36,124 nt of DNA from a virus. Location of the stretch: positions 1-36,124 of the IMG/VR virus record IMGVR_UViG_3300027788_001329; one strand, written 5' to 3'. Of this stretch, positions 8,592-32,807 are shown in pieces (the first letter of the stretch is position 1; the number at the start of each line of letters is the position of its first letter). A model generated the notes under the pieces. The model was not told the origin of the DNA, did not search any database, and saw nothing but the letters and a program-made list of their open reading frames with translations. The translations under genes and the position numbers were made by a program.

Positions 8592-8595
8592 CGAT

Positions 8596-11073: not shown

Positions 11074-11075
11074 AC

Positions 11076-11723: not shown

Positions 11724-11771
11724 ATTTACCATTTCACTAAGTTGTAGTTAACTACTCACATAAATATTAGC
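11724..11771 (+). promoter_or_regulatory. Short intergenic region with perfect palindrome and ATAAATA element
   Basis: This is one of the few gaps in the glycan island. It holds a perfect 12-bp palindrome, GTAGTTAACTAC (11744-11755), and just after it CATAAATA (11759-11766), which fits the NATAAATA late-promoter consensus of marine T4-like phages. The next ATG is at 11772, only 5 bases further on, so transcription from this element would give an almost leaderless message. No T-tract follows the palindrome, so it is not a standard terminator. It could be an operator or a site where transcription is re-started. Confidence 0.35.
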
Positions 11772-13222: not shown

Positions 13223-13227
13223 TATAT

Positions 13228-14091
13228 ATGGATAGGTATATAAAAAAACCAGACGACACTGAACTACCTAAGATGTTAATGCTAAATGGTGATGACGAGA
13301 TTATGAAACATTGGCAACATGGTACTAACGCTTTGGTAATTGATAGAAAACAGATATCAAGTAAAATTAGTGAAAGTCCTTGGCCTAATGATATTCCTGT
13401 AGCGTTTCGTAGTATGACCAAACGCAAAGAAATATGGAAGTGTTGGGAAACAGGTAGACCGTTTTATTATATCGATAACGGATACATGGGCAACTTAATG
13501 AAGAAGAAAAAGTATTATAGAGTTGTAAAAAATAATATCCAACACACAAAAATAAAACCAAACATGCCTGCTGATAGATATCGTGAGTTGTGTCAGTTTG
13601 CACCATACATGAATTATTATGGTAAAAAAGCTGTACAAGATGGAGCCATCTTACTAGTAACACCAAGCGAAAAACCTTGTCAATTTTATAACATTGATAA
13701 AAATACATGGCTTAAAGAAACAAAAACAGAACTTCGTAAATATACAGACCGTCCTATTATTATTAGAGAAAAAGGTTTGCGTCCAAACAGAATTAAAGAT
13801 AATAGTGTTGCCGCTCAATGTGCAAGAGAACAAATTCATTCTGTAGTTACATATCAAAGTATGGCCGCACTAGAAGCAATGCATTATGGTATTCCTGCAT
13901 TTACAACTGCACTTAGTTGTGTTGACAGTGTTGTTAATCGTAACTTAGCTGACATAGAGAATCCTAGCTATCCAGCTGAAGATGAATTTTTAAATTTACT
14001 ACACTATCTTGCTTATTGCCAATATACCCTAGATGAAATTAATAGAGGTGATGCACTAAGTATGATTGAAAGGATGAAATTATATGACTAG
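13228..14091 (+). CDS. KpsS-like capsule-type glycosyltransferase, paralogue B
   Basis: This 287-residue protein shares its C-terminal half with the genes at 1498, 14084 and 15860. Shared blocks are RPIIIREKG, a VVTYQSMAALEAMHYGIPAF segment, the LADIENPSYP motif and a HYLAYCQYTLDEINRGDAL tail. The N-terminal half has YYIDNGYMGN as in paralogue A (HLDNGYIGN). In KpsS/KpsC-type enzymes, the R-x-H/E-K and S-x-x-x-x-E-A-x-x-x-G-x-P segments line the nucleotide-sugar pocket; here the H of RxHP is replaced by E (REK), as in paralogue A. TATAAT lies four bases upstream of the ATG, but without a matching -35 it is not called a promoter. Confidence 0.62.
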   Translation: MDRYIKKPDDTELPKMLMLNGDDEIMKHWQHGTNALVIDRKQISSKISESPWPNDIPVAFRSMTKRKEIWKCWETGRPFYYIDNGYMGNLMKKKKYYRVVKNNIQHTKIKPNMPADRYRELCQFAPYMNYYGKKAVQDGAILLVTPSEKPCQFYNIDKNTWLKETKTELRKYTDRPIIIREKGLRPNRIKDNSVAAQCAREQIHSVVTYQSMAALEAMHYGIPAFTTALSCVDSVVNRNLADIENPSYPAEDEFLNLLHYLAYCQYTLDEINRGDALSMIERMKLYD

Positions 14092-15025
14092 GCCATTAAA
14101 AGTAAATGCATATATGAGTGCAATCCCTCCTGGAAACAAGAATCCAGAAAAGCCTAAACTATTAGAATACTTTGTTGAAGGTGTACAAAAGGCAGGCGAC
14201 AAGGGTAGAATTATTAATTCTTACACATACGAACCGTCAGACGTTGCTATTCTGCAAGGGTTTGTACATCCAGGAAGTAAGCATGTACCGCATTTAAATT
14301 TAAGACGTAATGTATTAGATGGACAAGCAAGCATTAGTAAACGAACAATTATTGCTGATAGTAATTTATTTTTAGCATATGATCCAGGTAATACAAAAAC
14401 ATATCTGCGTTATAGTTTTGATGGTATTTTTCCTAACACAGGCGAATATTGTGATAGTCAAATTTTACCAAAGCGTTGGGCAAACTTAAGAGATGATTTA
14501 GGTCTTGTACTAAAACCTTATAAAAAGTATGGAGATTATATTTTAATTACATGCCAACGAGATCAAGGGTGGAGTATGGACGGACTATCTGTTATTAATT
14601 GGTTGCATGTATTACTCCAAGAAATAAGAAGATATACTGACAGAAAAATATTAGTTAGATTTCATCCAGGTGATAAAAAGGTTTCAAAGCATGTACAGCA
14701 ACTACGGGCTATTGGACACAAAGTAGATATATCAAGCCCTACTAGTTCACTACTAAAAGATTTACACGATGCATATGCTGTAATTAGTTACAATAGTAGT
14801 CCAGCAGTTATTGCCGCAATTGAAGGCGTACCTGTCTTTGTACTTGACCCTACTAGAAGCCAGTCAGCAGAAGTTGCAAATAGGCATATAAAAGATATTG
14901 AGAATCCAAATATGGATTTTGATAGAGAAGCATGGCTACGTAGGCTAGCAATGATGCATTGGAGATTAGACGAACTACGCTCAGGAGAGTGTTGGCAACA
15001 TATGAGGAGTTGGGCTCACAGATGA
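14084..15025 (+). CDS. KpsS-like capsule-type glycosyltransferase, paralogue C
   Basis: This 313-residue protein is the longest of the four paralogues. Key segments are KILVRFHPGDKKVS (about 188-201, with the RxHP motif of Capsule_synth and Glyphos_transf families), AVISYNSSPAVIAAIEGVPV (232-251), HIKDIENPNMDFDRE (268-282) and the tail MHWRLDELRSGECWQHM. The order of RxHP, SxSSxxxxAxxxGxP and a C-terminal helix pair is that of GT-B enzymes that use CMP-Kdo or CDP-polyols. It overlaps paralogue B by 8 bases and the following gene by 4. With KdsA and KdsB encoded downstream, a Kdo transferase activity is a fair hypothesis. Confidence 0.65.
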   Translation: MTRPLKVNAYMSAIPPGNKNPEKPKLLEYFVEGVQKAGDKGRIINSYTYEPSDVAILQGFVHPGSKHVPHLNLRRNVLDGQASISKRTIIADSNLFLAYDPGNTKTYLRYSFDGIFPNTGEYCDSQILPKRWANLRDDLGLVLKPYKKYGDYILITCQRDQGWSMDGLSVINWLHVLLQEIRRYTDRKILVRFHPGDKKVSKHVQQLRAIGHKVDISSPTSSLLKDLHDAYAVISYNSSPAVIAAIEGVPVFVLDPTRSQSAEVANRHIKDIENPNMDFDREAWLRRLAMMHWRLDELRSGECWQHMRSWAHR

Positions 15026-15870
15026 AAAAAATAACAGTACTAACAACATTCCATCAACCAGGATTAGAAAAATACGGACAGCGTATGATTGATAGCTTTG
15101 CTAAAAGAGTTGATTCTAAAATTAAATTAATTGTGTATGCAGAAGATTGTAAGCCGAGTAATCCTAATCCAGAGCAAATTACAATACTAGATGCAATAGA
15201 AGTATTGCCTAAATTAAATGCATTCAAAGCACGTTGGAGCAACGTAGATAAAGCAAACGGAATTCCTCCAGACGATATCAAAGCAAGACGACCAAGGGAC
15301 TGGCATAAGAAGTTTAAGTGGGACGCTGTACGCTTCGCTAATAAAACATACGCTGTGTATGACGCTTGTACACGCTCTAAGGACTGGTGTGTGTGGATGG
15401 ATGCGGATACATTTGTACACAGTGATTGGTCATATGAACAGTTTGCAGAACAACTTCCAGATGATAAATGGATTACATATGTAGGTAGAGGCAAAGGATC
15501 ACAGACATGGCCGGAGTGTGGGTTCTACGGTATGAATATAAATCATCCTATGTGCATACAGTTCTTAAAAGAGTTTGAAAGATTTTACGAAGATGCAGAC
15601 AATGGTATCTTCGAATTAGAAGAATGGCACGACAGTTATGTGTTTGGACACATACTAAACTTAATGAGAAACATTGATCCTAACGTACATGATTACAGTG
15701 AAAACATCTATGTACAAACTGCTAAGACTGGCGGAGGAGGACATCCACTTATTAATAGTGATTTAGGAAAATGGATTGATCATATGAAAGGCGCCCGTAA
15801 GGACGATGGACATTCGAAGCGAAAAGACCTAATGGGTAATCGTAACGAATCGTATTGGAATGAAATTTAG
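15022..15870 (+). CDS. GT-A glycosyltransferase with DAD motif
   Basis: This 282-residue protein starts at the ATG at 15022, inside an ATGA overlap. It opens with KITVLTTFHQPGLEKYGQRM, a first strand and helix with a Tyr/Gly loop, and carries the metal site DWCVWMDADTFVHS (DAD). An ECGFYGMNINHPMC segment and an EWHDSYVFGHILN segment follow, in the positions expected for the acceptor strand and the metal-binding His of GT-A transferases. A YVQTAKTGGGGHPLINSD loop lies near the C-terminus. It sits between two KpsS-like copies, so it may act on the same chain. Confidence 0.68.
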   Translation: MKKITVLTTFHQPGLEKYGQRMIDSFAKRVDSKIKLIVYAEDCKPSNPNPEQITILDAIEVLPKLNAFKARWSNVDKANGIPPDDIKARRPRDWHKKFKWDAVRFANKTYAVYDACTRSKDWCVWMDADTFVHSDWSYEQFAEQLPDDKWITYVGRGKGSQTWPECGFYGMNINHPMCIQFLKEFERFYEDADNGIFELEEWHDSYVFGHILNLMRNIDPNVHDYSENIYVQTAKTGGGGHPLINSDLGKWIDHMKGARKDDGHSKRKDLMGNRNESYWNEI

Positions 15871-16696
15871 TTTATGGACACAGTATGGCGCACTTAATAG
15901 TAAGCCTATTTTTGATGCTTTTGCAAATAGCCTTAACAGTAACGGGCATGTTGTTGTTTATAATGATTCTAGTGCCGATATTAATGTTATTTGGAGCGTG
16001 TTGTTTAATGGAAGAATGGCTGGAAACAAAGCAGTCTGGGAACAACAAAAACCAACAATAGTATTAGAAGTTGGCGGCATTAAAAGAGGTACAACCTGGA
16101 AAGTAGGATTAAATGGGATTAATAGAGATGCTTACTTTGGTCCTAGTAGCAACAACAATACTCGTGCTAATGAACTAGGTCTTAAATTATCTCCGTGGAA
16201 GTACACTGGCGAGTATATTCTTATAGCAGGTCAACATGATAAGAGTTTACAATGGAAAGATATGCCTAGTATGGCTACTTGGGTACACGATACAATAACG
16301 TTTATTCGAGCCCAAACTGATCGTCCTATTATATTTAGACCACATCCGCGTTGTCCGTTACCTGCTATTGAACACGACTTTAAAGATGTTAAAAGACAAA
16401 CTCCTAAGCAAATACAAAACACATATGATGACTTTGATATGCAGTTTGACAACATATGGGCTACAGTTAGTTGGTCAAGTAACCCGGGCATACATAGTGT
16501 AATCAACGGTGTGCCAGCATTTACCGGCCCAAGTAGTTTAGCATTTGATGTAGCAGAGCAAAATTTACGCAACATTGACAATCCTTTATATTGTGATAGA
16601 ACACAATGGCTAAACGATTACGCACATACGGAATATACTATTGAAGAAATTTCTCAAGGAATTCCATTAAAACACTTGACTTCTAAGTTAATTTAA
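15860..16696 (+). CDS. KpsS-like capsule-type glycosyltransferase, paralogue D
   Basis: This 278-residue protein ends the glycan island. It has RPIIFRPHPRCPLP (155-168, full RxHPR motif), ATVSWSSNPGIHSVINGVPA (201-220), NLRNIDNPLYCDRTQ and a HTEYTIEEISQGIPLKHL tail, the same order as paralogue C. The N-terminal domain, with HVVVYNDSSADINVIWSVL, looks like the acceptor domain of GT-B enzymes. Its last bases contain the -35 box of the next promoter (16676-16681), so the gene ends inside the control region of the following unit. Confidence 0.66.
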   Translation: MKFSLWTQYGALNSKPIFDAFANSLNSNGHVVVYNDSSADINVIWSVLFNGRMAGNKAVWEQQKPTIVLEVGGIKRGTTWKVGLNGINRDAYFGPSSNNNTRANELGLKLSPWKYTGEYILIAGQHDKSLQWKDMPSMATWVHDTITFIRAQTDRPIIFRPHPRCPLPAIEHDFKDVKRQTPKQIQNTYDDFDMQFDNIWATVSWSSNPGIHSVINGVPAFTGPSSLAFDVAEQNLRNIDNPLYCDRTQWLNDYAHTEYTIEEISQGIPLKHLTSKLI

Positions 16697-16710: not shown

Positions 16711-17931
16711 ATGATAATAGAGAAACCATCTACGTGTGAAGACTGTCTGACCTATTTACTAGGCAAGTGTAAAGTATCGATAGACGATAAACCTATACTA
16801 GTAAGTTTGAATAAGCAGTTGAATAGAAAAGTTGCATTAACTGATCGGCAATTTGCATTACTAAAAGGCAAACTGTTAAACTACTCTCGAGTATGGTTTG
16901 ACGAAGATGTTGATATAGAGACTGTTGTTAATAATTTAAAGTATCCGTTAAGAGAAATAGATAGATCGCATTGGCTTAAAATTCTTACATATAACGACGA
17001 GGATCTTCTTGGAATTAGATTCCCTTTTAATAAAAAAGTCATTGATAGAATTGAAGAGTTACGTAATATGGAGCCTAAGAATAATCTAAAGTATAAAGAT
17101 AATACTCATTACTTCCATCTTACACCAAAGAACGTTTTTGGATTAGTTGAAATAGCAAAACGGTTTGAAACTAAATTTGTTATACATGATGAAATTTTAG
17201 AAATATATAATCAACTAATAGAGTATGAGAAGAATTGGGCTGACTATGTGCCAGGCATATATGATTACAAAGTTTGTAATATTCCTGATGTAGCAATCGA
17301 AAACTTAAAAAATGAACTAGGCGATTGTAATAAAGATACGTTATCTTTATATTATGATAGGAGATACTTGTACGGGTTAGAAGAATTTAATTACGACTTA
17401 GTTGATCAAAGTATTAAGAAGCATACTATTATAGCTCAGCATATTATTAAAAGAGATAAGTCAGTTGTATTAATTAATAATAAATCTGTTAACTTAAATG
17501 ATCTATTGTCAGCAATATACGAAATTGGTAGACTGCCAATGTTAGTTATTCTTACTCCTAATACTGCACATGATACATTATTTGAAATACATAATGTACT
17601 TAAAAATATTATTCCTTCTGAAGAAATGGCTGTATTATTTAGAAAAGATGGCACTGATCTGTTTAATGAGTATGTTAAAACACAAAAACTTAATAATATG
17701 GTTGACATTAACACTAAAGTAGTGTATATTAGTAGTATAAAGTTACCTAAGCCATTATTACAATCAGATTGGCATGCAAGCTGTAGTTTATCTTTTGATA
17801 GCTCTAAGTTAACATACAATCATGTTAGTGGATATGTAGACACATTTGATCTACGTATTACATATGACGAAATTGGAATTGGTGGACTTTGGGACAGAAC
17901 TGAGCGGAGATACATACGTGCGAACATGTAA
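16711..17931 (+). CDS. Unrecognised 406-aa phage protein upstream of uvsW
   Basis: I do not recognise a domain in this 406-residue protein. It has an N-terminal CxxC pair within STCEDCLTYLLGKC (8-21; three Cys), which could bind a metal, and a C-terminal half rich in beta-branched residues with a VILINNKSVNL/LPMLVILTPN region that could be an alpha/beta domain. It is transcribed from the strong promoter P1 and its end overlaps the uvsW start by 14 bases. The position suggests a partner of UvsW in recombination or replication restart, but this is only inference from position. The CxxC plus helicase neighbour could suggest a nucleic-acid-binding adaptor. Confidence 0.75.
   Translation: MIIEKPSTCEDCLTYLLGKCKVSIDDKPILVSLNKQLNRKVALTDRQFALLKGKLLNYSRVWFDEDVDIETVVNNLKYPLREIDRSHWLKILTYNDEDLLGIRFPFNKKVIDRIEELRNMEPKNNLKYKDNTHYFHLTPKNVFGLVEIAKRFETKFVIHDEILEIYNQLIEYEKNWADYVPGIYDYKVCNIPDVAIENLKNELGDCNKDTLSLYYDRRYLYGLEEFNYDLVDQSIKKHTIIAQHIIKRDKSVVLINNKSVNLNDLLSAIYEIGRLPMLVILTPNTAHDTLFEIHNVLKNIIPSEEMAVLFRKDGTDLFNEYVKTQKLNNMVDINTKVVYISSIKLPKPLLQSDWHASCSLSFDSSKLTYNHVSGYVDTFDLRITYDEIGIGGLWDRTERRYIRANM
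17906..17920 (+). promoter_or_regulatory. Ribosome binding site that sets the uvsW start
   Basis: GGAG at 17906-17909 is followed by 8 bases and GTG at 17918. Upstream in-frame starts (TTG 17846, ATG 17864) have no such site, and the GTG start gives an N-terminus that aligns in length with T4 UvsW. Confidence 0.6.
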
Positions 17932-19381
17932 ACTAGTTATTGAAGATGAAGTAAATATTAAGCTAGAAGGACTAGAGGTAGATGTACGGAGAAAACTTGC
18001 AAGTGCATTAAAGTTTGAAGTACCTTATGCTCGATACATGCCGCAATATAAATTAGGCCGCTGGGATGGTAAAGTTGCTTTCTTTGGTATAGGCGGCACC
18101 GGTTATGTTAATCACCTTGACGTAGTGCAAGAAGTCCTTGCTAAAAATAATGTAAAAATAGTTGACATTGACGACCGAAGACATCCTATTGATTTAAAGT
18201 TTACACATGTTACAGAACGTTATTGGGCAGACCAAGGTGTATGTTGGCCCGAAGGACATCCTGTAGCAGGTACAGAAATTATCCTGCGAGATTATCAAGT
18301 TGAAGCTATTAATAACTTCCTTGACAATCCACAGAGCTTGCAACAGATCGCGACTGGAGCAGGCAAGACTATCACCACTGCGACACTAAGTCACATGACA
18401 GAAAGATACGGGCGTAGCCTAGTTATCGTCCCCAATAAGAGTCTCGTCGAGCAAACGGAAGAGGACTACATTAATTGTAATCTGGATGTGGGTGTGTACT
18501 TTGGTGATAGGAAACAATTAGGTAAGACTCATACTATTTGTACTTGGCAAAGTTTAAATATCTTAGATAAGAAAACAAAAGATGGCTCAGCAGTATTGTC
18601 GTTAGCAGAGTTTTTAGAAGGCGTGAGTACTATTATTATTGACGAAGTACACCAAGCAAAAGCAGAAGTACTTAAAAATTTGTTAACACGTAACTTACGT
18701 AATGCTCCAATTCGTTGGGGACTAACAGGAACAGTACCTAAAGAACAGTTTGAATTTCAAAGTATACATGCTAGTTTAGGTCCTGTAATTGGAAACATTA
18801 CAGCAAAAGAGTTACAAGACAAAGGTGTGTTATCTAACTGCCATGTTAATGTGTGCCAGTTAATTGATACAGTAGCACACAGCGATTATCAATCAGAATT
18901 AAAATATCTTGTTTCTAACGAAGCAAGAATAGAATATATGTCAAAACTGTTAACTAAGATATCACAAGCCGGTAATACACTGATACTAGTTGATAGAATC
19001 TCAGCAGGGCAGATGCTTGCTGAGTTAATACCTGATAGCACTTTCATAAGCGGAAGTGTTAAAGTAAAAGACCGGAAAGAAACCTATGATACAATTAAAA
19101 AAGGTACCAATGAAGTGATTATTGCAACCTATGGTGTTGCGGCTGTTGGTATTAATATCCCTAGGATCTTTAATCTTGTGCTTATTGAGCCGGGCAAGAG
19201 TTTTGTTCGAGTAATACAATCAATTGGTAGAGGCGTAAGAAAGGCTGAAGACAAAGACTTCGTACAAATATGGGACTTGACATCAACATGCAAGTACGCG
19301 AAGCGACATCTAACTCAACGTAAGAAGTTTTACAAAGAGGCAGAGTATCCCTTTACAATCGAAAAAATAGACTGGAATTAA
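17918..19381 (+). CDS. uvsW: UvsW-type recombination DNA helicase
   Basis: This 487-residue protein (GTG start) is a superfamily 2 helicase that in T4 drives branch migration and fork regression and ends origin-dependent initiation by unwinding R-loops. The N-terminal domain includes YMPQYKLGRWDGKVAFF, which matches T4's RFNPRFRYGNWDGRIRLL. Motif Q region LRDYQVEAI is followed by Walker A ATGAGKT (145-151), Walker B DEVH (242-245), motif III GLTGT and motif VI QSIGRGVRK near 424-432. Length is close to T4 UvsW. It overlaps the preceding gene by 14 bases and is part of the P1 transcription unit. Confidence 0.94.
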   Translation: MRTCKLVIEDEVNIKLEGLEVDVRRKLASALKFEVPYARYMPQYKLGRWDGKVAFFGIGGTGYVNHLDVVQEVLAKNNVKIVDIDDRRHPIDLKFTHVTERYWADQGVCWPEGHPVAGTEIILRDYQVEAINNFLDNPQSLQQIATGAGKTITTATLSHMTERYGRSLVIVPNKSLVEQTEEDYINCNLDVGVYFGDRKQLGKTHTICTWQSLNILDKKTKDGSAVLSLAEFLEGVSTIIIDEVHQAKAEVLKNLLTRNLRNAPIRWGLTGTVPKEQFEFQSIHASLGPVIGNITAKELQDKGVLSNCHVNVCQLIDTVAHSDYQSELKYLVSNEARIEYMSKLLTKISQAGNTLILVDRISAGQMLAELIPDSTFISGSVKVKDRKETYDTIKKGTNEVIIATYGVAAVGINIPRIFNLVLIEPGKSFVRVIQSIGRGVRKAEDKDFVQIWDLTSTCKYAKRHLTQRKKFYKEAEYPFTIEKIDWN

Positions 19382-20254: not shown

Positions 20255-21016
20255 ATGTTAACAAAACTTTTAGAAGGTGTAGACAAGGCGCTTGTCAGGA
20301 ATCTTGTGATTCTACACACCCTAGTAATTGCAGTAAGTAATTACTTGGTAACAATTAGATTTGATCTATTCCCGGGTGCAGAGTTGCCCTTATTTGGATC
20401 ATTTCCACTAGCGGCGGCGGCGTTTACATTTCCGATCGTTGTAATTGCAACTGACCTTACAGTACGTATGGTAGGTAAGCAAGCAGGTAGAGCTGTTGTA
20501 GCAATGGCTATTATTCCTGCTATTGTAGTATCGGTACTTGTGCTATTAGCACTAGGTGACGAACATGCATATAGAGTAGGTATAGCATCAGGTGTAGCAT
20601 ATGCAGTAGGTACAATGCTTGATGTATATGTGTTCCAACACATTCGTGAGCGTATGAGTGCATGGTGGATTGCACCAGCAGTATCAACTATTGCGGCAAA
20701 CATTATTGATACATATGCTTTCTTCTACACAGCATTTTATCCTGCACCTTGGGTTGCAGAGGTAGCATTAAATAATACACTTACAAAAATTGTTATAGGA
20801 CTAATTGTATTCCTTCCAGCATACGGTATATTGTTAAAATGGATGCAAGGCAAAGTAGTTGTAGAAGCACCTAAGCCAGTAGCTAAAAAGACTACTAAAG
20901 TTAAAGCTAAAGCACCAGCTAAAACTGGAGGCAAAAAAGCAGGCGAGCTAAGTATGACTCCAACTGCTATTAAGCAACGTGAAGCACGAGCTAAAGCAAA
21001 AGCGAAAAAGGTATAA
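20255..21016 (+). CDS. yhhQ: YhhQ/VUT-family queuosine-precursor transporter with Lys/Ala-rich tail
   Basis: This 253-residue inner-membrane protein aligns over its first ~200 residues with E. coli YhhQ, which imports 7-deazaguanine (preQ0/preQ1). Matching blocks are LHTLVIAVSNYLV, FTFPIVVIATDLTVRM, MLDVYVFQHIRE, WWIAPAVSTIAANIIDT and FLPAYGILL; there are about six transmembrane segments (near 15-35, 52-72, 82-100, 108-126, 140-160, 176-196). The last ~50 residues are unlike YhhQ: a Lys/Ala/Pro-rich, histone-like tail. The start follows a strong AGGAG. Phages use such transporters to supply precursors for 7-deazaguanine in DNA or tRNA; no deazaguanine-DNA gene is seen here. Confidence 0.9.
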   Translation: MLTKLLEGVDKALVRNLVILHTLVIAVSNYLVTIRFDLFPGAELPLFGSFPLAAAAFTFPIVVIATDLTVRMVGKQAGRAVVAMAIIPAIVVSVLVLLALGDEHAYRVGIASGVAYAVGTMLDVYVFQHIRERMSAWWIAPAVSTIAANIIDTYAFFYTAFYPAPWVAEVALNNTLTKIVIGLIVFLPAYGILLKWMQGKVVVEAPKPVAKKTTKVKAKAPAKTGGKKAGELSMTPTAIKQREARAKAKAKKV

Positions 21017-21043: not shown

Positions 21044-21294
21044 AAGCACTAATATACGAGCGAGCCAACGGTGTTGTGTTCGCTCGTTATCGTGACCCGC
21101 CACACAATAAACAACCTAGATGGGTTATTGGTGGTGAACCAAATGCTACAGCAAGAGCATTAGGAATTGTAAGTTATGACGAATGGAAAGAAGTAATGTC
21201 AATTGCAGAAAAAGATCCAAACGTTAAAAAACAACTTGACAGATTAATGATTATGTATTATACTGTTAAAGATGAATTAAAGGAAAACGAATGA
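21022..21294 (+). CDS. Small hypothetical protein with TTG start inside a hairpin
   Basis: This 90-residue protein has no recognisable domain. No ATG occurs in frame near the N-terminus; the TTG at 21022, with AAGG about ten bases upstream, is the best start. The protein begins with a NLIPNEALIYERANGVVFAR segment, then PRWVIGGEP and a helical C-terminus with KQLDRLMIMYYTVKDEL. The start is inside a hairpin, which would reduce translation unless the stem is opened. It overlaps kdsA by 4 bases, so it may couple to the sugar operon. Confidence 0.6.
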   Translation: MGNLIPNEALIYERANGVVFARYRDPPHNKQPRWVIGGEPNATARALGIVSYDEWKEVMSIAEKDPNVKKQLDRLMIMYYTVKDELKENE

Positions 21295-22064
21295 GAATTA
21301 TAGCAGGCCCATGCCAACACGAGACATTAGCACAGTCAGCAGAAATTGCTGAAGAGTGCAAACGTGTATGTGACATGCACGGAATTGAATACATATTCAA
21401 AGCAAGCTATGATAAAGCTAATCGCAGTAGCGAACAAGGCAAACGAGGTATTGGCTTAGGCCCCACACTAGAAGATTTTCGTACATTAAAAAAACAATAC
21501 AATATACAAACGTTAACTGATGTACACGACGAATTACAAGTTGAACAAATTATGTATGCATATAGTGATGCAGTAGATGTATTACAAATTCCTGCATTCT
21601 TATGTAGACAAACTGATTTAATTAAAGCGGCTTGTGCTACAGATAAAATTGTTAATATTAAAAAAGGACAGTTCCTTGCACCGTGGGACATGACTGGCAT
21701 ATTAACTAAAACAGAAGGTGCTAAAGAAGTTTGGATTACCGAACGAGGAACAAGTTTTGGATATAACACATTGGTTGTCGACTACACCGGTCTACTTTAC
21801 ATGTTGGATAATTTTAGCGAGCCATTGGTTCTTGATTGTACACATGCTGTACAAAAGCCCGGGGGACTTGGTGGCTCGTCAGGCGGTAATCGTAACTACG
21901 TGCCTGGCGTGGCTCGCTCTGGCAGTGCTCTTGGTATTTCATCGTTCTTCTTAGAAGTCCATAAAGACCCTGATAATGCACCTAGTGACGGTCCAAATAT
22001 GTTACACTTAGATGACTTCGAACAAGTTGTAAACGATATAGTTAAGTATAATTATGAACGATAA
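21291..22064 (+). CDS. kdsA: 3-deoxy-D-manno-octulosonate 8-phosphate synthase
   Basis: KdsA condenses phosphoenolpyruvate with arabinose-5-phosphate to give Kdo-8-phosphate. This 257-residue protein has all hallmark blocks: FKASYDKANRSS (36-47), LTDVHDELQ (75-83), QIPAFLCRQTDL (99-110), SFGYNTLVVDYTG (155-167), CTHAVQKPGG (183-192) and LEVHKDPDNAPSDGP (221-235). An AGPC motif with Cys8 at the N-terminus, plus His185, Glu222 and Asp233, match the four ligands of the metal-dependent class of KdsA; the metal-free E. coli enzyme has Asn in place of that Cys. Length is close to normal (about 265-285). It overlaps hemE by 11 bases. Confidence 0.95.
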   Translation: MRIIAGPCQHETLAQSAEIAEECKRVCDMHGIEYIFKASYDKANRSSEQGKRGIGLGPTLEDFRTLKKQYNIQTLTDVHDELQVEQIMYAYSDAVDVLQIPAFLCRQTDLIKAACATDKIVNIKKGQFLAPWDMTGILTKTEGAKEVWITERGTSFGYNTLVVDYTGLLYMLDNFSEPLVLDCTHAVQKPGGLGGSSGGNRNYVPGVARSGSALGISSFFLEVHKDPDNAPSDGPNMLHLDDFEQVVNDIVKYNYER

Positions 22065-23031
22065 ATTTCAAAATGCATGTAATAGGGCAGAACAATCAAC
22101 ACCTCCAATTTGGATGATGCGACAAGCGGGTAGATACCAAAAAGGTTACATGGCAATGAAAGAAGATTGGTCATTTGAACAAATGTGTAAGCTACCTCGT
22201 ATAGCCGCAAAAGTTGCTATGCTACCAATAGAACAATTTGATTTTGATATTGCAATATTGTTTAGTGATATATTATTCCCAATCGAAGGGCTTGGCGTTC
22301 CTTTAAAGTTTGATCCTGGCCCACAGTTTGAATGGACTATTAACGAAGACAACTATAAAGATCACTCCAATATTGAATTAGCAATTAAGCATATGGAGTT
22401 CCAAGCAAGAGCAGTAACAACAACAAGAGAAATGTTGCCTTCTAATAAAAGTCTTATTGGCTTTGTTGGTGGCCCTTGGACATTATTAAATTATGCTACA
22501 GGTAAAAATCCTAAGCTAAGTTTAAAATGGAAAACACAATACTTGCGTGAAGTTATTGTTCCTGTACTATATAGAAATATAAATTTGCAATTAGATGCAG
22601 GTGCTGAAAAAGTAATGATATTAGATAGTGGTGTAGGCAATATGAGTGAGCAGTATTTTAAGAAAGAATACGTTAACTTATTACAACCACTAATACAAAC
22701 TGACACAGGATATTACACACAACATTTAAATGCAAACTGCTTACCTACATTATATAAAATGGGATGGGCAGGCATAGGAGTTGACAGTATTGTTGACATT
22801 ACTAAAACATTTAAGAAATACAAGGACGGATTTATACAAGGCAATTTTGATGAAAAACTTTTATTGTTACCTAAAGAAGAATGTCGATCGCACATTGAAG
22901 ATTTTTGTAACACAATGCAAACAGTTGACCATACTGGTTGGGTTTGTGGACTTGGACATGGCATAACAAAAACTACTCCGGAAGAAAATGTAAAAATGTT
23001 CGTAGATATGATTAGAGAGAGATTTAAATGA
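22054..23031 (+). CDS. hemE: Uroporphyrinogen decarboxylase
   Basis: HemE converts uroporphyrinogen III to coproporphyrinogen III in heme and chlorophyll synthesis. This 325-residue protein aligns end to end with bacterial HemE: PIWMMRQAGRYQKGYM (18-33, Arg23), AILFSDILFPIEGLG (67-81, Asp72), IGFVGGPWTLLNYATG, a VMILDSGVGN segment, GFIQGNFDEKLL and the terminal GLGHGITKTTPEENV (299-313, His302). The catalytic Asp and the substrate-binding Arg and His are all present. HemE is usually about 350 residues; the missing length is in short loops. It overlaps kdsA by 11 bases and kdsB by 4. The adjacent Kdo genes have no metabolic link to it. Confidence 0.93.
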   Translation: MNDKFQNACNRAEQSTPPIWMMRQAGRYQKGYMAMKEDWSFEQMCKLPRIAAKVAMLPIEQFDFDIAILFSDILFPIEGLGVPLKFDPGPQFEWTINEDNYKDHSNIELAIKHMEFQARAVTTTREMLPSNKSLIGFVGGPWTLLNYATGKNPKLSLKWKTQYLREVIVPVLYRNINLQLDAGAEKVMILDSGVGNMSEQYFKKEYVNLLQPLIQTDTGYYTQHLNANCLPTLYKMGWAGIGVDSIVDITKTFKKYKDGFIQGNFDEKLLLLPKEECRSHIEDFCNTMQTVDHTGWVCGLGHGITKTTPEENVKMFVDMIRERFK

Positions 23032-23690
23032 AAACAGCAATACTAATACCAGCACGTTTAGAAAGTACACGTTATCCAAATAAAATGTTAGTTGAACTAG
23101 ATGGTAAGCCGTTAATTCAACGAGTATATGAAGCATGTAAAGAAACAGTTTACGACACGTATGTTGTTACAGACAGCGAAGAAATAGCAAGCCTAGTTCC
23201 TAATTCTATTATGACTAAAGACGCAACTAACGGTACTGAAAGATGTGCTATGGCCGCAGAAGGATTAGATTATGATTACTTTGTAAACGTACAAGGTGAT
23301 ATGCCTGATGTTACTGAGGATATGATTTATAATGTAGTAGAGCAATTAAAAGAATATGAAGTGTCAACTTTATATACTGACATGAGAGAAGAGGACCAAG
23401 ATAAACCTGATAGTGTTAAACTAATTAAATCAAATAACAAAGTGTTATGGATGGGTAGAGGAATGACAGGATACGGAAATTGGCATTTAGGTATATACGG
23501 ATATGCTAAAGTTGCACTGAGCATGTACAGAAATTTAGATCTGCACTTAGAAGAAGCCACTGAAAAACTAGAGCAACTACGTTGGTTAAAGAACGGTATT
23601 GATATTGGTTGCGCCTGGACTAAATTTGATGGTGTGGAAATAAACACCGAAGAAGATATTCATCTTTGGAATGACAAAAATAATGCTTGA
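23028..23690 (+). CDS. kdsB: CMP-Kdo synthetase (3-deoxy-manno-octulosonate cytidylyltransferase)
   Basis: KdsB couples Kdo to CTP to give CMP-Kdo, the donor for Kdo transferases. This 220-residue protein has PARLESTRYPNK (8-19, the CTP-binding loop), TNGTERCA (67-74), YFVNVQGDMP (84-93), NWHLGIYGY (151-159), EKLEQLRWLKNG (179-190) and DGVEINTEEDI (201-211). Bacterial KdsB has about 248 residues; the central dimerisation loop is shorter here. The related sialic-acid synthetases lack this block set, so KdsB is the better call. It is the last gene of the kdsA-hemE-kdsB trio and its stop lies right at promoter P2. Confidence 0.93.
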   Translation: MKTAILIPARLESTRYPNKMLVELDGKPLIQRVYEACKETVYDTYVVTDSEEIASLVPNSIMTKDATNGTERCAMAAEGLDYDYFVNVQGDMPDVTEDMIYNVVEQLKEYEVSTLYTDMREEDQDKPDSVKLIKSNNKVLWMGRGMTGYGNWHLGIYGYAKVALSMYRNLDLHLEEATEKLEQLRWLKNGIDIGCAWTKFDGVEINTEEDIHLWNDKNNA

Positions 23691-24500: not shown

Positions 24501-24649
24501 AGATTAAAATAGAATTAGAAATTGATACTGAGGTCGAGCAAGACCTAAATACTGTTCAAGAGCTAATTGATAAGTTAGCAGAACTGAAGGAGACACTAGA
24601 CGATGATAGAGTTTTTAGCTCCACAAAAGAAAACAGGCGGGCTATTTAA
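24497..24649 (+). CDS. Small ORF of 50 residues
   Basis: This short protein begins at an ATG overlapping the cupin stop. It is a single charged amphipathic helix (MKIKIELEIDTEVEQDLNTV, then an ELIDKLAELKETLDDD stretch). It overlaps the following zinc-finger gene by 47 bases in another frame. I do not recognise it; similar short acidic ORFs are common in this position in marine T4-like phages, which I recall but could not check. A coiled-coil or antagonist role is possible. Confidence 0.5.
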   Translation: MKIKIELEIDTEVEQDLNTVQELIDKLAELKETLDDDRVFSSTKENRRAI

Positions 24650-25340
24650 AAAGATGTCTACAGTAAAACCTTATACTTGTGAATACTGCGGATCTTCTTT
24701 TACAAAAGAAAAAACGCTGTCAGTTCATATGTGCGAAAAGAAAAGGCGTAGATTACAAAAAGATGAGAAGCGTGTGCAAACAGGATACTATGCATTTACA
24801 CGTTTTTATAAACTAAGTGCAGGTACTAAAAAAGAAAAAACATACGAAGACTTTTGTGCAAGTCCGTACTACAATGCTTTTGTTAAGTTTGGAAGTTTTG
24901 TTAGCAATGTACGTCCATTGTATCCAGAGAAATATGTTGACTATGTAGTAACGTCGGGTGTTAAACTAGACCACTGGTGTCGTGATGCATTGTACGAACA
25001 GTATGCAACAGAATTAGTACTTAAAGAAAGTATGGAAACAGCAGTTGAAAGATCTATACAAACTATGATGGATTGGGCTACTGAAGTTGAGGCTCCTTGG
25101 AATGACTACTTTAGATATTGTAGTCTGAACAGAGTAACAAGGGATATTAAAGACGGAAAGATAAGTCCTTGGTTAGTATTAAATTGTCCTAGTGGAAAAG
25201 AAATGCTTAGTAAGTTTACTGACGAACAATTAGAAATAGTGTATACAGTTATAGAACCAAAACATTGGGCTTTACGTTTTAGAAGAGTTCCTGCAGATGT
25301 TGAAATAGTAAAAGAAGTAGCAAAGGAAAGTAAATTATGA
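24603..25340 (+). CDS. C2H2-type zinc-finger protein
   Basis: This 245-residue protein has a clear zinc-finger-like element near the N-terminus, YTCEYCGSSFTKEKTLSVHM with a further Cys (Cys-x2-Cys...His-x-Cys), followed by a basic stretch KKRRRLQKDEKR. The rest is helical with several Trp/Tyr-rich segments and no other domain I recognise. This arrangement suggests DNA or RNA binding. ATG 24603 is chosen because GGAG lies 11 bases upstream; ATG 24654 is a weaker alternative. The 3' end overlaps the oxygenase gene by 4 bases. Confidence 0.65.
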   Translation: MIEFLAPQKKTGGLFKKMSTVKPYTCEYCGSSFTKEKTLSVHMCEKKRRRLQKDEKRVQTGYYAFTRFYKLSAGTKKEKTYEDFCASPYYNAFVKFGSFVSNVRPLYPEKYVDYVVTSGVKLDHWCRDALYEQYATELVLKESMETAVERSIQTMMDWATEVEAPWNDYFRYCSLNRVTRDIKDGKISPWLVLNCPSGKEMLSKFTDEQLEIVYTVIEPKHWALRFRRVPADVEIVKEVAKESKL

Positions 25341-25912: not shown

Positions 25913-26431
25913 ATGGAACTAGAACTTGTTATAGCACCAGACGAGAGATTAGATACAGCAGTTACTAAAGAATGGGATTTTGATAATCCACAGTACGATG
26001 CTAAAGAACTAAGAGCCTCAATGATTGCAGTGATGAAACAGAACAGAGGCATTGGGCTATCTGCAAATCAAGTAGGCATTATGGACGCAAGATGTTTTGT
26101 GTTTCAAAACAACCAAGCAAATAATGACTATGAAAGAAACGTATTAGCATTACATCCGTCATACGAAATAGTTGAAGATGAACCTGAAATTGATATGTGG
26201 GAAGGGTGTCTAAGTTTTCCGGGTATTACCTTACAAATTAAACGCCCATCGCGTATTAAAGCTAAGTGGAAAGGTGTTGACGGCAAAGAGTACGGTGATG
26301 AACTTTTTGGATATCAAGCACGTTGCTTTATGCATGAGTTAGATCATTTAGATGGTATAAGCATGAACGAACATGTGTCGCCCAAAATATGGAGAGAAGC
26401 TGTAGCCAATGCAGAAGAAAAGAAAACTTAA
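25913..26431 (+). CDS. def: Peptide deformylase
   Basis: Peptide deformylase removes the formyl group from the N-terminal Met of new proteins. This 172-residue protein has all three motifs: GIGLSANQVG (46-55), EGCLSFPG (97-104, Cys99 ligand) and HELDHLDG (141-148, two His ligands and the catalytic Glu). Motif spacing is standard. AGGAG lies 10-14 bases before the ATG. Phage deformylases are known to be active and may speed maturation of specific host or phage proteins; which one is unknown here. The gene is followed by overlapping small ORFs. Confidence 0.95.
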   Translation: MELELVIAPDERLDTAVTKEWDFDNPQYDAKELRASMIAVMKQNRGIGLSANQVGIMDARCFVFQNNQANNDYERNVLALHPSYEIVEDEPEIDMWEGCLSFPGITLQIKRPSRIKAKWKGVDGKEYGDELFGYQARCFMHELDHLDGISMNEHVSPKIWREAVANAEEKKT

Positions 26432-26588: not shown

Positions 26589-26752
26589 TTAGAGAAAAGA
26601 AAGACACAAAAGATTACACAACTCCGTCACCTCAAGAATTACAAAAACAACTTGACGAGCGTATGGCAAAGTTTTTAGCTAAAGGTGGCAAGATTGAAAA
26701 GGTAGATGATATGAAACCTACTAAAGAACAACTAAAGAGTTGGACAGTATAA
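26585..26752 (+). CDS. Small charged ORF (55 aa)
   Basis: This short, mostly charged protein (MIREKKDTKDYTTPSPQELQ then a helical KQLDERMAKFLAKGGKIEKV stretch) has a good GGAGA a few bases upstream. It has no recognised domain. It ends right before the ATG of the polymerase-like gene at 26753 (TAAATG), as expected for coupled genes in this genome. Confidence 0.6.
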   Translation: MIREKKDTKDYTTPSPQELQKQLDERMAKFLAKGGKIEKVDDMKPTKEQLKSWTV

Positions 26753-27313
26753 ATGCCTGATATTGATATTGACTTTGCGGATAGAGGTATTGTTTTATCT
26801 AAAATAAAACATCGAGTAGCAAAATTGCCTACTGGTAAGAAACATAACACTGGTGTGTATGTGACTGAAGTTCCACACAATCCGTTTAACGAATTATCAA
26901 CTATCAACTATAAAGATGCAGAAGAACGAGGATACTTTAAACTAGACTTTCTTAACGTAAGCATATACGATAAGGTAAGCAACGAAGAACACTTACGACA
27001 ACTAATGAACAAGGAACCAATATGGGAACTATTAGAAACAAAGGACTTTTGCGATCTAGTATTTCATGTATCAGGTCATCACGAACTAATCAAAAAACTA
27101 AAGCCAAAGAATATCCCACAACTGGCCGCTGTATTAGCTATCATACGTCCAGCAAAGAGACACTTACAAGATAGTGATTGGAATACTATTATGGATCAAG
27201 TTTGGGTTAAACCTAAAGAAGGATACTTCTTTAAAAAGGCACATGCTGTCAGTTACGCTGTAGCAGTTGTGGTACACATGAACTTAATCTGTGAGGATCT
27301 AAATGCGTTATGA
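26753..27313 (+). CDS. Miniature DNA polymerase III alpha-like protein
   Basis: This 186-residue protein is a highly reduced relative of bacterial PolC/DnaE (C-family polymerase, about 1,160 aa). It retains in order PDIDIDF (2-8; equals the catalytic D401/D403 pair of E. coli DnaE), GYFKLDFLNV (60-69; equals KFDFLGL with D555), a CDLVFHVSGHHELIKKLKP segment matching the AVFQLES..LIKRLQP region, LAIIRPAKR (128-136; equals LFRPGP) and KKAHAVSYA (161-169; equals NKSHSAAYA). So all three catalytic Asp positions and parts of palm and fingers remain while most of the fold is deleted. It may bind DNA or a host replisome part. Polymerase activity is doubtful. Confidence 0.7.
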   Translation: MPDIDIDFADRGIVLSKIKHRVAKLPTGKKHNTGVYVTEVPHNPFNELSTINYKDAEERGYFKLDFLNVSIYDKVSNEEHLRQLMNKEPIWELLETKDFCDLVFHVSGHHELIKKLKPKNIPQLAAVLAIIRPAKRHLQDSDWNTIMDQVWVKPKEGYFFKKAHAVSYAVAVVVHMNLICEDLNAL

Positions 27314-27539
27314 GTTTGAAGACTATCGACCTAAAAAGAAACCAGAAGACGTTGGCCCTTGGCTAACATGGGCTTGGCCTAGAAAATTAGTAGGATCATA
27401 CCTTTGGAGAATTATGTTTTGGACAATACTAGTTCCGGTAGTATTATTTGGTACAATACTTACGCCGTTAGGATTTTTACTACAGTTAGTAGTAATTGAT
27501 TACTTCACTTATCTACAATATAAGAATAGTATTACTTAG
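27303..27539 (+). CDS. Small membrane protein
   Basis: This 78-residue protein has a charged, Pro-rich N-terminus followed by two hydrophobic segments (about 30-52 and 53-70: MFWTILVPVVLFGTILTPLG and FLLQLVVIDYF). It overlaps the preceding gene by 11 bases. No family is recognised; it could be a small inner-membrane protein such as an inhibitor or holin-like factor, but nothing specific supports that. Its 3' end overlaps the reverse-strand gene by 8 bases. Confidence 0.65.
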   Translation: MRYEFEDYRPKKKPEDVGPWLTWAWPRKLVGSYLWRIMFWTILVPVVLFGTILTPLGFLLQLVVIDYFTYLQYKNSIT

Positions 27540-27903
27540 AAGGTCTTTTAAGTAGCTGTACGCTTTTACGCTTTACTCTTTTTACAGATAACTTATTCAA
27601 ATTAACTGTAGGCCCTAAGGTTACTTTAACATCTTTACTATTCATAGTCATCATTATATATTTAAACTGTTCCATATCTTTGTTTAAAAATATGTTAATA
27701 GGAATCATTCTATTTGATTCCCACCACCAGTCTTCGCCTAGTTCTACAAACTTAGCTTTATCAACGTCAGACCGCAAATTCGTGTAGATGTACATGCTTG
27801 TAATGAAAGCATCTTGATTGTTTATAATACCGATGTACTCGTTGCCACCATATGTAACAACGCTTAAAAACGGAAACTTTTCTTCTATATCTTTTCTCAA
27901 CAT
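27532..27903 (-). CDS. Conserved T4-like phage protein on the reverse strand
   Basis: This 123-residue protein is the only reverse-strand gene in the first 35 kb. The start is the ATG at 27903; an upstream in-frame ATG at 27948 would place 15 extra residues over the opposite gene's start. The sequence opens with LRKDIEEKFPFLSVVTYGGN followed by EYIGIINNQDAFIT and has a Trp-rich EDWWWESNRMIPI segment. The C-terminus is basic (KRVKRKSVQLLKR). I recognise it as a recurring protein of marine T4-like phages by its appearance, but its function is unknown to me. It converges with the gene at 27303, overlapping by 8 bases. Confidence 0.7.
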   Translation of the reverse strand: MLRKDIEEKFPFLSVVTYGGNEYIGIINNQDAFITSMYIYTNLRSDVDKAKFVELGEDWWWESNRMIPINIFLNKDMEQFKYIMMTMNSKDVKVTLGPTVNLNKLSVKRVKRKSVQLLKRPSK

Positions 27904-27908
27904 AATCC

Positions 27909-27916
27909 AATAAATA
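27909..27916 (+). promoter_or_regulatory. T4-type late promoter element
   Basis: AATAAATA (27909-27916) matches the NATAAATA consensus of marine T4-like late promoters. It lies 27 bases before the ATG at 27943, in the 39-base gap between divergent genes. The downstream gene looks like a virion protein, consistent with late expression. Confidence 0.6.
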
Positions 27917-27942
27917 CAACTAGTGTTTAGGATAAAATTATT

Positions 27943-28710
27943 ATGCAACTAGTTACAAGATATTTAGCAACTAATCAATCGGTGGTAGTCTTAGATGGCT
28001 TTGCCGGCAACGTGGAGTATAGGAAAGTGTACCAGAAAAATATAAAAGTATCTAAAGGGATAGACAATGTCATCACCTTTACAATCAAAAACAGCGATCA
28101 TAAGCCTGTATCAATACTTAATACATACACACCGTATGTAGAAGTTTTTACAGAAGACAAAGTAATGCTCAAGCGTTATATGGGAACTATTAAAGAAACT
28201 AGTACACCTAATTACAAAGGACAGTTTACAATCAATATAGCAGACGGTGATACATTAAATATCAACGGACAGTACATGAGTTATGTTGTATACCTTACTA
28301 AGACTTCAGATAATACTAACACACTAACATATGCTGATTCACAATTTGGATCATCAGGAACAATTGAACTAATAGGATCTGCTTTTCCAGGTGCTATTGA
28401 TTCAAAACTAGTACAAACATTTCTTGATAATATTAGTTCAGTAGTAGACGCTGAACCACAAATTAACAGCAACGAAGCATTGCACACGGCGGCAATATAC
28501 TCAACTGGGTTCGCTGGTACTATTAAGGTACAAGGAACTTTAGGTGATAACACAAGCACTAGCTGGTTTGATATTTCAACTGAAACATTATCAAATCCAA
28601 GTGCGCCACACTACGTAAACTTTAACGGTGTCTTTAGCAATATAAGATTTGTAAAGGCAAACGATTCTGGAAACGTAGGAACTATAGATAAGATCTTAGT
28701 TAGAAACTAG
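27943..28710 (+). CDS. Probable virion structural protein
   Basis: This 255-residue protein is rich in beta-strand, Thr, Ser and Asn, with no enzyme motifs. It has VITFTIKNSDHKPVSIL near residue 43 and repeated short strands with TSTSWFDIS and HYVNFNGVFSNIRFVKAND, typical of phage tail, fibre or baseplate components. The late promoter element upstream supports a structural role. I cannot assign a particular T4 gene. It is interposed between early replication genes, so it would be expressed at a different time from its neighbours. Confidence 0.62.
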   Translation: MQLVTRYLATNQSVVVLDGFAGNVEYRKVYQKNIKVSKGIDNVITFTIKNSDHKPVSILNTYTPYVEVFTEDKVMLKRYMGTIKETSTPNYKGQFTINIADGDTLNINGQYMSYVVYLTKTSDNTNTLTYADSQFGSSGTIELIGSAFPGAIDSKLVQTFLDNISSVVDAEPQINSNEALHTAAIYSTGFAGTIKVQGTLGDNTSTSWFDISTETLSNPSAPHYVNFNGVFSNIRFVKANDSGNVGTIDKILVRN

Positions 28711-28959: not shown

Positions 28960-29955
28960 ATGAGCATAGTCTATGATACACTGATACAATACTTACCTGC
29001 AAAACGTAAAACAACCCCTAGTGGGTGGACCTCGTTTAATGCACCCTGTTGTATACACAACGGTGACAGTGCAGACAAACGACAACGTGGCGGACTAATA
29101 TCCAATGCAGATGACGGTGTTAGTTATCATTGTTTTAATTGTGGGTTCAAAGCAAGCTGGCAACAAGGACGTAACCTTAGTGGTAAGATGCGTAAACTAT
29201 TGCAATGGCTAAACACTCCAGATGATATCATTAACAAACTTGCGTTAACTGTTATGCAAGAGAACGAAGGCTTTACAATAACACAACAACTAGTTGAGTT
29301 ACCTAAGTTTAACACAGTACCATTGCCAGATGATGCTGTTAAGATTGCAGACATAACAGACTTCAGCAAGTACAGTATGTCTATACTTGAATATATGTCA
29401 GTACGAGGACTTAATTTAGACGACACTGATTATTATTGGTCTCCTAGTTTAGGATATAGAGATCGTTTGATCATTCCTTTTTATTATGAAAAACGTATTG
29501 TAGGTTGGACTGCTAGAACAGTACAAGCTGATAAACAACCAAAGTACATGAGCGAACAACAACCTGGCTTTGTATACGGATTAGATGAACAAGGATATAA
29601 CAAAGTATTTTGTATAGTGTGTGAAGGACCTATGGATGCTATACATATTGATGGTGTAGCACTTCTCGGATCGGAGATTAAAGATCAACAAGCTATGCTA
29701 ATTAATAAAGTAGACAAGCAAATTATTGTAGTTCCTGACAGAGACGAAGCAGGTTCTAAATTAATAGATCAAGCAATTGAGCTTGGATGGTCAGTTAGTT
29801 TACCAGAATGGTCTGATGACATTAACGACATTGGTGATGCAGTTGCAAAGTATGGCAGACTGTATACACTCTATAGTATCGTTAACAACGCAGAGTCTAA
29901 TGAATTAAAGATTAGATTAAGGAGTAAAAAATGGTTAAGTGGTTTAAAAAAGTAA
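28960..29955 (+). CDS. 61: DNA primase (gp61-like)
   Basis: In T4, gp61 makes RNA primers with gp41 for lagging-strand synthesis. This 331-residue protein (T4 gp61: 342) has a zinc-ribbon with Cys30, Cys31, His33 and Cys58, Cys61 (PCCIHNGD and YHCFNCGF). The TOPRIM fold has CEGPMDA (220-226) with the catalytic Glu221 and PDRDEAG (258-264) with the paired Asp. RDRLIIPFYYEKRIVGWTAR (166-185) fits the region before TOPRIM in bacterial DnaG-type primases. The gene is directly behind promoter P3. The last bases overlap a small ORF (29931) by 25 bases. Confidence 0.92.
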   Translation: MSIVYDTLIQYLPAKRKTTPSGWTSFNAPCCIHNGDSADKRQRGGLISNADDGVSYHCFNCGFKASWQQGRNLSGKMRKLLQWLNTPDDIINKLALTVMQENEGFTITQQLVELPKFNTVPLPDDAVKIADITDFSKYSMSILEYMSVRGLNLDDTDYYWSPSLGYRDRLIIPFYYEKRIVGWTARTVQADKQPKYMSEQQPGFVYGLDEQGYNKVFCIVCEGPMDAIHIDGVALLGSEIKDQQAMLINKVDKQIIVVPDRDEAGSKLIDQAIELGWSVSLPEWSDDINDIGDAVAKYGRLYTLYSIVNNAESNELKIRLRSKKWLSGLKK

Positions 29956-31258: not shown

Positions 31259-31369
31259 ATGATGGAAGTTGTTGGCAGTGACATTCCAGATGCGGAAAAA
31301 ATAATAGTGGTAAATCAATATATAGATATACTAAAAGACTTAGAGAAGGCAATTAATGGACAAGACTAG
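31259..31369 (+). CDS. Small ORF before gp41
   Basis: This 36-residue ORF begins with a double ATG (MMEVVGSDIPDAEKIIVVNQ then YIDILKDLEKAINGQD) and is acidic and helical. It overlaps the gp41 start by 14 bases. A longer form from GTG at 31208 would be 53 residues, but its start lies upstream of the predicted transcription start, so the ATG form is preferred. No homologue is recognised. It could couple translation into gp41. Confidence 0.5.
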   Translation: MMEVVGSDIPDAEKIIVVNQYIDILKDLEKAINGQD

Positions 31370-32807
31370 ACAGAATACAGATTACGGATACGACATACAA
31401 AAACTATATTTAGAGATGATGCTAACAGATGCAGAGTCTTTTGTTAGGTGTCAGGCTGTATTTGATCCTAGTGCATTCGACAGACGCTTAGAAGCTAGTG
31501 CGGCATTCTTAAACACATACGTTAGTGAGCATAATGCATTGCCTACATTTGAAATGATTAATGCGGCAACTAAAATAGATTTAAAAAATCCAGGTGATCT
31601 AAAAGAAGAACACTATGATTGGTTACTTGCAGAGTTTGAAACATTTAGTAGACACAAAGCACTAGAAGCCGCAATACTTAAAAGTGCAGACTTACTTGAA
31701 AAAGGTGAGTATGGTCCAGTAGAAGATCTAGTTAAGAAGGCTGTGCAAATTGGTTTACAAAAAGACTTAGGTACAGATTACTTTAACGATCCAAGAGCTA
31801 GACTAGAAGCAATTAAAAGTAATAACGGACAAGTAAGCACAGGCTGGGCCGCTATTGATAAGAAACTATTTGGTGGATTCAACAGAGGCGAGCTTAATAT
31901 ATTTGCAGGTGGATCAGGTGCAGGTAAGAGTTTATTCTTAGCTAACCTAGGAGTTAACTGGGCATTACAAGGTATGAACGTTTTGTATCTAACATTAGAG
32001 CTTAGTGAAAACTTAGTTAGTATGCGTGTTGATAGTATGATAACAGATGTACCAAGTCGCGATGTGTTTAAGAACATTGACGATGTTGAAATGAAAGTCA
32101 AGATGATTGGCAAGAAGTCAGGTGCATTCCAAGTTAAGTATATGCCTTCAGGCAAGACACCTAATGATATAAGAAGTTATATTAAAGAGTATGAAATTAA
32201 AACAGGCAAGAAAGTAGACGTACTACTGTTAGACTATTTAGATTTGCTTATGCCCAACGGTGCAAAGGTAAGTGCAGAGAACTTGTACATCAAAGACAAG
32301 TACGTATCAGAAGAGTTACGTAACTTAGCAATGGAATTAAACTGTGTATTTGTTACAGCCGCACAGTTGAACCGTGGTGCAGTGGAAGAAATAGAATTTG
32401 ATCACTCGCACATATCAGGTGGACTTAGTAAGATACAAACAGCAGACAACGTGTTTGGTATCTTTACAAGTAGAGCAATGCGTGAACGTGGACGTTATCA
32501 GTTACAGTTAATGAAGACACGTAACAGTGGCGGAGTAGGACAAAAGATCGATCTAGGATTTGATATTAACACATTACGTATCATGGACTTAGATGAAGAT
32601 GACGATGATAGCGGAAATACAAGTGGATACACAAGTAGTGGTGGCCAAAACACTAACAGTATTGTAAGTAATCTTAGACGTCAGAACACACAACAACCTG
32701 ATCTAAATGCAGATCCAGGAGACGGTGAAACAGTTAAGAAAGTTAAAGCGGATGTTGATTCAACTAAACTTAGATCTTTTATTAATAACCTTGGAAGCAA
32801 TGACTAA
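31356..32807 (+). CDS. 41: Replicative DNA helicase (gp41/DnaB-like)
   Basis: gp41 is the hexameric 5'-3' replicative helicase that works with primase gp61. This 483-residue protein (T4 gp41: 475) has the DnaB-type C-terminal ATPase: FAGGSGAGKSLF (Walker A GGSGAGKS, 185-192), LYLTLELSENLVSMRV, the Walker B strand VDVLLLDYLDLL (287-298), VFVTAAQLNR and the FDHSHISGGLSKIQTADNVF segment with a Ser/Gly turn. The N-terminal domain is helical as in the family. A Ser/Asp/Gly-rich linker (about 425-465) near the C-terminus is probably disordered. It ends in a TAATG overlap with the next gene. Confidence 0.95.
   Translation: MDKTRQNTDYGYDIQKLYLEMMLTDAESFVRCQAVFDPSAFDRRLEASAAFLNTYVSEHNALPTFEMINAATKIDLKNPGDLKEEHYDWLLAEFETFSRHKALEAAILKSADLLEKGEYGPVEDLVKKAVQIGLQKDLGTDYFNDPRARLEAIKSNNGQVSTGWAAIDKKLFGGFNRGELNIFAGGSGAGKSLFLANLGVNWALQGMNVLYLTLELSENLVSMRVDSMITDVPSRDVFKNIDDVEMKVKMIGKKSGAFQVKYMPSGKTPNDIRSYIKEYEIKTGKKVDVLLLDYLDLLMPNGAKVSAENLYIKDKYVSEELRNLAMELNCVFVTAAQLNRGAVEEIEFDHSHISGGLSKIQTADNVFGIFTSRAMRERGRYQLQLMKTRNSGGVGQKIDLGFDINTLRIMDLDEDDDDSGNTSGYTSSGGQNTNSIVSNLRRQNTQQPDLNADPGDGETVKKVKADVDSTKLRSFINNLGSND

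Follow-up and report, generated by a model that had tools for sequence, protein, structure and literature searches.

A phage gene for the C-terminal unit of a split, minimal DNA polymerase III alpha subunit

The 36,124-nucleotide viral DNA analysed here (the window; IMG/VR record IMGVR_UViG_3300027788_001329) carries a small gene that almost certainly encodes the C-terminal unit (C-unit) of a split, minimal DNA polymerase III (Pol III) alpha family. The best explanation, with a probability of roughly 0.68, is that this protein is the C-terminal catalytic subunit of an active, two-gene minimal Pol III alpha of a T4-like jumbo phage. From the genomes of group 2.2 jumbo phages, a minimal Pol III alpha peculiar to phages was described as two proteins with distant genes, the N-terminal half binding NTP and the C-terminal half binding Mg2+ and the template (Iyer et al., 2021; PMC7824862). 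A family B polymerase accompanies the split enzyme, and the same authors suggested that the two cooperate in the synthesis of one strand or in repair, and that the split form may resemble a pre-cellular stage of Pol III (Iyer et al., 2021; PMC7824862). Their reading, reached independently, agrees with ours, and the phage of the window is a further example of this kind. The C-unit was recorded as a truncated 172-aa alpha subunit in the CBB genome paper (PMC5259590) and as gp316 in that of Atu_ph07 (PMC6102473); no report of experimental follow-up was found in the openly accessible literature. Added here are the division point, a confident structural match, residue conservation over 155 sequences, the pairing of both genes in complete genomes and their abundance in environmental viral contigs. 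The gene and its main motifs are as follows.

26753..27313, + strand: C-unit of the split, minimal DNA polymerase III alpha, 186 aa, phrog_11778
26753..26776, + strand: MPDIDIDF motif at the start of the C-unit gene; Asp3 and Asp5 correspond to E. coli D401 and D403
26939..26947, + strand: K-L-D, Lys63 and the third catalytic Asp65, corresponding to E. coli K553 and D555
27146..27157, + strand: fingers motif R132-P-A-K135 (E. coli FRPGP, R639-P640)
27233..27244, + strand: fingers motif K161-K162-A-H164 (E. coli NKSH, 757-760)

The open reading frame is a complete gene with an ATG start, directly preceded by an in-frame TAA (26750-26752). Read-through from the upstream frame was considered and dismissed, as this TAA is conserved neither in distance nor in sequence. 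Against relatives of 87-88% identity, dN/dS was about 0.09-0.15, and the C-unit was intact in all 159 viral loci, with stop-to-stop lengths of 183-246 aa. The gene is thus intact and under strong purifying selection, which bears out the constrained role proposed in a preliminary description of this DNA but shows its label 'remnant' to be wrong. Phages that infect many different host groups share the C-unit, with identities of roughly 28-51%.

In the PHROGs database, residues 3-182 matched phrog_11778 ('DNA polymerase', E 1.3e-57), with a weaker match to the full-length phage Pol III alpha phrog_405 (4.7e-10). Other single-sequence searches gave weak results, lectins among them: the PF17657 fingers domain in Pfam (E 0.0075, below the family cutoff), DnaE in NCBIfam (E 0.006) and no Pol III match in the PDB by phmmer. 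Because these matches were weak, alignments and structure were needed for identification. An AlphaFold2 model built from a 78-row alignment of the window protein and its viral-contig homologues reached a mean pLDDT of 93.5 and a pTM of 0.83. With this model, the first 15 Foldseek matches in the PDB were all DnaE or PolC, and the first 15 VIA-align matches were all C-family polymerases (Z 9.6-6.3), the best unrelated chain scoring Z 3.4. By VIA-align, Taq DnaE 461-841 aligned with 184 of the 186 residues (Z 9.6), Geobacillus PolC 971-1296 with 182 (Z 9.5) and E. coli DnaE 401-784 with 180 (Z 9.0). Identity to bacterial DnaE in structural alignments was about 15-24%, a distant relationship. The predicted structure convincingly resembles C-family polymerases only, and it is this comparison that settles the C-family homology, which the preliminary description had claimed from sequence motifs and which the phrog_11778 match also indicates.

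Window residues D3, D5 and D65 correspond to the catalytic D401, D403 and D555 of E. coli DnaE, and D7 to D405. None of these four residues varies among the 155 distinct homologues, and neither do H31, G34, K63, R132, P133 and H164; K135 is identical in 154 and K161 in 153. The retention of all three catalytic Asp residues was therefore correctly noted at the outset, and neither of the outcomes that might have overturned it, a model unlike the DnaE palm or coincidental Asp positions, was found. The family profile is collinear with E. coli DnaE 402-420, 595-641 and 752-767. Large losses fall at about 420-511 (most of the thumb) and about 642-751 (fingers); roughly 80-90 residues are missing at each of the two places. 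What remains in the protein is the metal-binding half of the C-family palm and reduced fingers; it lacks the PHP domain and anything C-terminal of the fingers (past E. coli 784). Since its first residue corresponds to E. coli 399, the chain is also without the GRGS half of the palm. The first impression that PHP, thumb and most of the palm and fingers had been dropped was accordingly right for PHP and most of the thumb; half of the palm and reduced fingers are retained, and the other palm half is a second gene.

Bacterial DnaE and PolC share with the window protein the nucleotidyltransferase palm fold of Pol-beta type, its catalytic Asp triad and the KxD, RP and KxH motifs, the last two in the fingers. 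They differ in having, in one chain, the PHP domain and the GRGS-bearing N-terminal palm as well as the complete thumb and fingers and the clamp-binding, OB and tau-binding regions; the window protein lacks PHP, the GRGS palm half, most of the thumb, about 100 fingers residues and the clamp, tau and OB parts, and the phage version is made from two genes. Full-length phage Pol III alpha (phrog_405; Bacillus phage G type, group 3.2) is likewise a phage-encoded C-family catalytic core. That type, however, is a single long, host-like protein with PHP that defines its group's replication system, whereas the window's kind is split, minimal and accompanied in its relatives by a B-family replicase. 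The closest correspondence is with the split enzyme of group 2.2 (phrog_11778, phrog_11127; Atu_ph07 gp316, CBB_328, and Paride_0017 with Paride_0087), whose C-unit is the same as that of the window: a short C-terminal unit with Mg2+-binding Asp residues and a template-binding subdomain. The window's relatives share with group 2.2 the partner family, the co-occurrence with a B-family polymerase and T4-like replication genes. The window C-unit, from an uncultured phage, is 47-51% identical to those of its nearest isolates. In other phage Pol III alpha families (phrog_13169, phrog_11165 and phrog_12219; 463-823 aa) the GRGS segment sits close to a terminus or the fingers segment comes early, which hints that splits may have arisen independently in other groups.

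The missing palm half was found as a partner gene, the N-unit. PF07733 matched a single protein in each of two genomes, those of Phosso and Paride, encoded far from the C-unit gene.

Phosso record, 97210-97743: N-unit, 177 aa
Paride_0087: N-unit, 169 aa

Both proteins end shortly after WGVGRGSSVASYVLFLIG. By profile, the N-unit was also detected in the other eight isolates examined (121Q, RaK2, Atu_ph07, SCTP-2, Vibrio 2.275.O, RAS14, XacN1 and Slicko01), in a 236-kb marine contig related to the window and in further large contigs; a profile search did not find it in the window record, a 36-kb fragment. The GRGS motif (NTP-binding) is invariant in N-units, and every one of the 80 N-units inspected on viral contigs terminates in EFLR, EFMR or EFLRD. 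The N-unit profile aligns with E. coli DnaE 208-392 (33.5 bits). Although the N-unit model was poor (pLDDT 64.6), its residues 63-185 align with E. coli 271-393 and with the equivalent segments of other C-family enzymes, and in most close relatives the C-unit starts at the equivalent of E. coli 399. The two units thus tile DnaE 271-393 and 401-784, leaving about 5-7 linker residues unaccounted for, and the division point lies within the palm, separating its GRGS half from its DxD half at E. coli residues 393/399. The N-unit, too, is under strong purifying selection (dN/dS likewise about 0.09-0.15). What had looked like a stand-alone miniature is therefore short of a palm half that exists as a separate, conserved phage gene. 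The first N-unit profile, built from two sequences, also matched a long protein (open frames of 420-563 aa) in several marine contigs (L105-L110); these matches were rejected because in the one inspected, L105, the protein is the DnaB helicase, which has a GRGSS-like P-loop.

C-unit, N-unit and a B-family polymerase occurred together in all 10 isolate genomes examined (Phosso, Paride and the eight named above). N-unit and B-family polymerase were also present in eight of nine related C-unit contigs longer than 200 kb; in the ninth, of 261 kb (G024), neither was detected, and that contig is probably incomplete. Overall, 19 of the 21 related genomes or contigs searched had a B-family polymerase. 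A B-family polymerase beside a C-family piece, which the preliminary description had found unexpected, is thus what the relatives have. At least 547 C-unit loci and 488 N-unit loci (the latter with a marine N-unit as query) were found in IMG/VR, a similar abundance. No fusion or adjacency of the two units was seen in 239 viral loci. Among 84,980 cellular species genomes there were only 12 matches, all in metagenome-assembled genomes; these matches are most likely phage contigs binned with their hosts. Two large C-unit contigs, PBPT01000016.1 (335 kb) and PBPT01000082.1 (153 kb), were binned into a Neomarinimicrobiota metagenome-assembled genome and are likely jumbo phage contigs within that bin.

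In the window, the C-unit gene lies among the following replication genes and conserved neighbours.

17846..19381, + strand: UvsW-like helicase, upstream end of the conserved block
24603..25340, + strand: phrog_11058 protein, 245 aa, with an N-terminal CxxC...HxxxC zinc-finger-like motif, upstream in the replication block
27532..27948, - strand: phrog_11637, small convergent gene
28960..29955, + strand: DNA primase, T4 gp61-like, same conserved block
31356..32807, + strand: DnaB/T4 gp41-like replicative helicase, same conserved block

Most isolates share a block consisting of the UvsW helicase, a 168-aa gene, a 150-aa gene, phrog_11058, the C-unit, convergent phrog_11637, primase and DnaB helicase. 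The phrog_11058 protein, for which Pfam gave no match, is conserved in the replication block of most relatives. In most of the isolates examined, a phrog_11637 homologue, recognized by sequence match, is the next gene after the C-unit, and the remaining ones have an oppositely oriented gene near its place; phrog_11637 is possibly linked functionally to the C-unit. Beside the N-unit lie a small gene and a GroES-like gene, joined in several phages by the clamp loader. The small conserved gene and the GroES-like gene follow the N-unit in marine contigs and isolates, for example at 6592-7008 and 7008-7418 of contig L131.

On the preferred reading, that of an active two-gene Pol III alpha, the N-unit and C-unit proteins would associate, and the GRGS loop of the former and the Asp triad of the latter would form one two-metal nucleotidyltransferase site in trans. 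The assembled enzyme would extend DNA ends. With most of the thumb and about 100 residues of the fingers gone, such an enzyme would seem suited to short-range synthesis, and processive synthesis is doubtful. Short-range synthesis makes an accessory role likelier than that of a second main replicase, and the enzyme would probably assist the B-family replicase in lagging-strand synthesis, gap filling or repair. The small nucleotidyltransferase envisaged in the preliminary description would hold only as such a two-protein enzyme, and it is not new, having been proposed by Iyer and colleagues (2021; PMC7824862).

The same two units may instead assemble on the Pol III fold without templated polymerization, to act as a terminal transferase, an end-processing enzyme or a nucleotidyltransferase on another substrate. 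This would agree with a complete nucleotidyltransferase core from which the elements that grip the duplex in cellular enzymes are largely (thumb) or partly (fingers) missing, and with the B-family replicase in 19 of the 21 relatives. However, the fingers motifs RPxK and KKxH, which adjoin the incoming nucleotide, are nearly as invariant as the Asp residues, and the gene lies within the conserved primase, helicase and UvsW block, so we give this explanation a small but appreciable chance. A catalytically idle structural subunit of the replisome with a Pol III fold, for instance an accessory of the primase-helicase or of the B-family polymerase, is also rather unlikely. The small size, the divided gene, the other replicase and the nearby primase and helicase would suit it, but the four active-site Asp residues, Lys63, His31, Arg132 and His164 are identical in every one of the 155 sequences and the GRGS motif of the separate partner is invariant, whereas idle enzymes usually lose such residues.

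Fragments of host proteins can be dominant-negative inhibitors, which lends some plausibility to the earlier idea of a decoy or inhibitor of the host replisome that binds the beta clamp or tau. In alpha, the clamp- and tau-binding segments lie C-terminal of residue 784. The alignment of the C-unit, over its whole length, is confined to E. coli 401-784, and the protein therefore lacks precisely these parts; it is also distant from bacterial DnaE and paired with a second catalytic piece, and a decoy role is very improbable. Least credible, to the point of being negligible, is the idea that a full-length dnaE was acquired from a host and is now decaying: the large internal deletions relative to DnaE might suggest this, but the gene was intact at every viral locus, with dN/dS of about 0.1, and is shared by phages of many host groups at the identities given above.

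If the two-gene Pol III alpha is active, its two chains would have to meet to form one catalytic site, these phages would combine bacterial-type and archaeo-eukaryotic-type polymerases in one replisome, and the enzyme would reveal which parts of Pol III catalysis cannot do without. There is about an even chance that the two chains make up the smallest known C-family polymerase, with an active site formed in trans, working alongside a B-family replicase within one phage replisome and possibly resembling pre-cellular Pol III; we know of no smaller C-family polymerase. The boundaries and invariant residues make the 2021 proposal easily testable with two proteins of about 185 residues.

Several other genes of the window, all on the + strand, were also noted. 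A full-length, HemE-like uroporphyrinogen decarboxylase (22054-23031; Pfam URO-D, E 1.5e-65), an enzyme of the haem/chlorophyll pathway, is to our knowledge not a common phage gene. It is flanked by a DAHP-synthetase-I family protein, probably KDO-8-phosphate synthase (21291-22064), and a cytidylyltransferase, probably CMP-KDO synthetase (23028-23690); genes similar to this flanking pair adjoin the polymerase unit in another contig (L037). Auxiliary genes adjoining the replication block encode a Vut_1 family transporter of the vitamin/queuosine-precursor type (20255-21016) and a peptide deformylase (25913-26431). A long run of genes resembling glycosyltransferases, methyltransferases, sulfotransferases and sugar cytidylyltransferases (1483-16696), assigned mostly by eye, suggests glycan modification.
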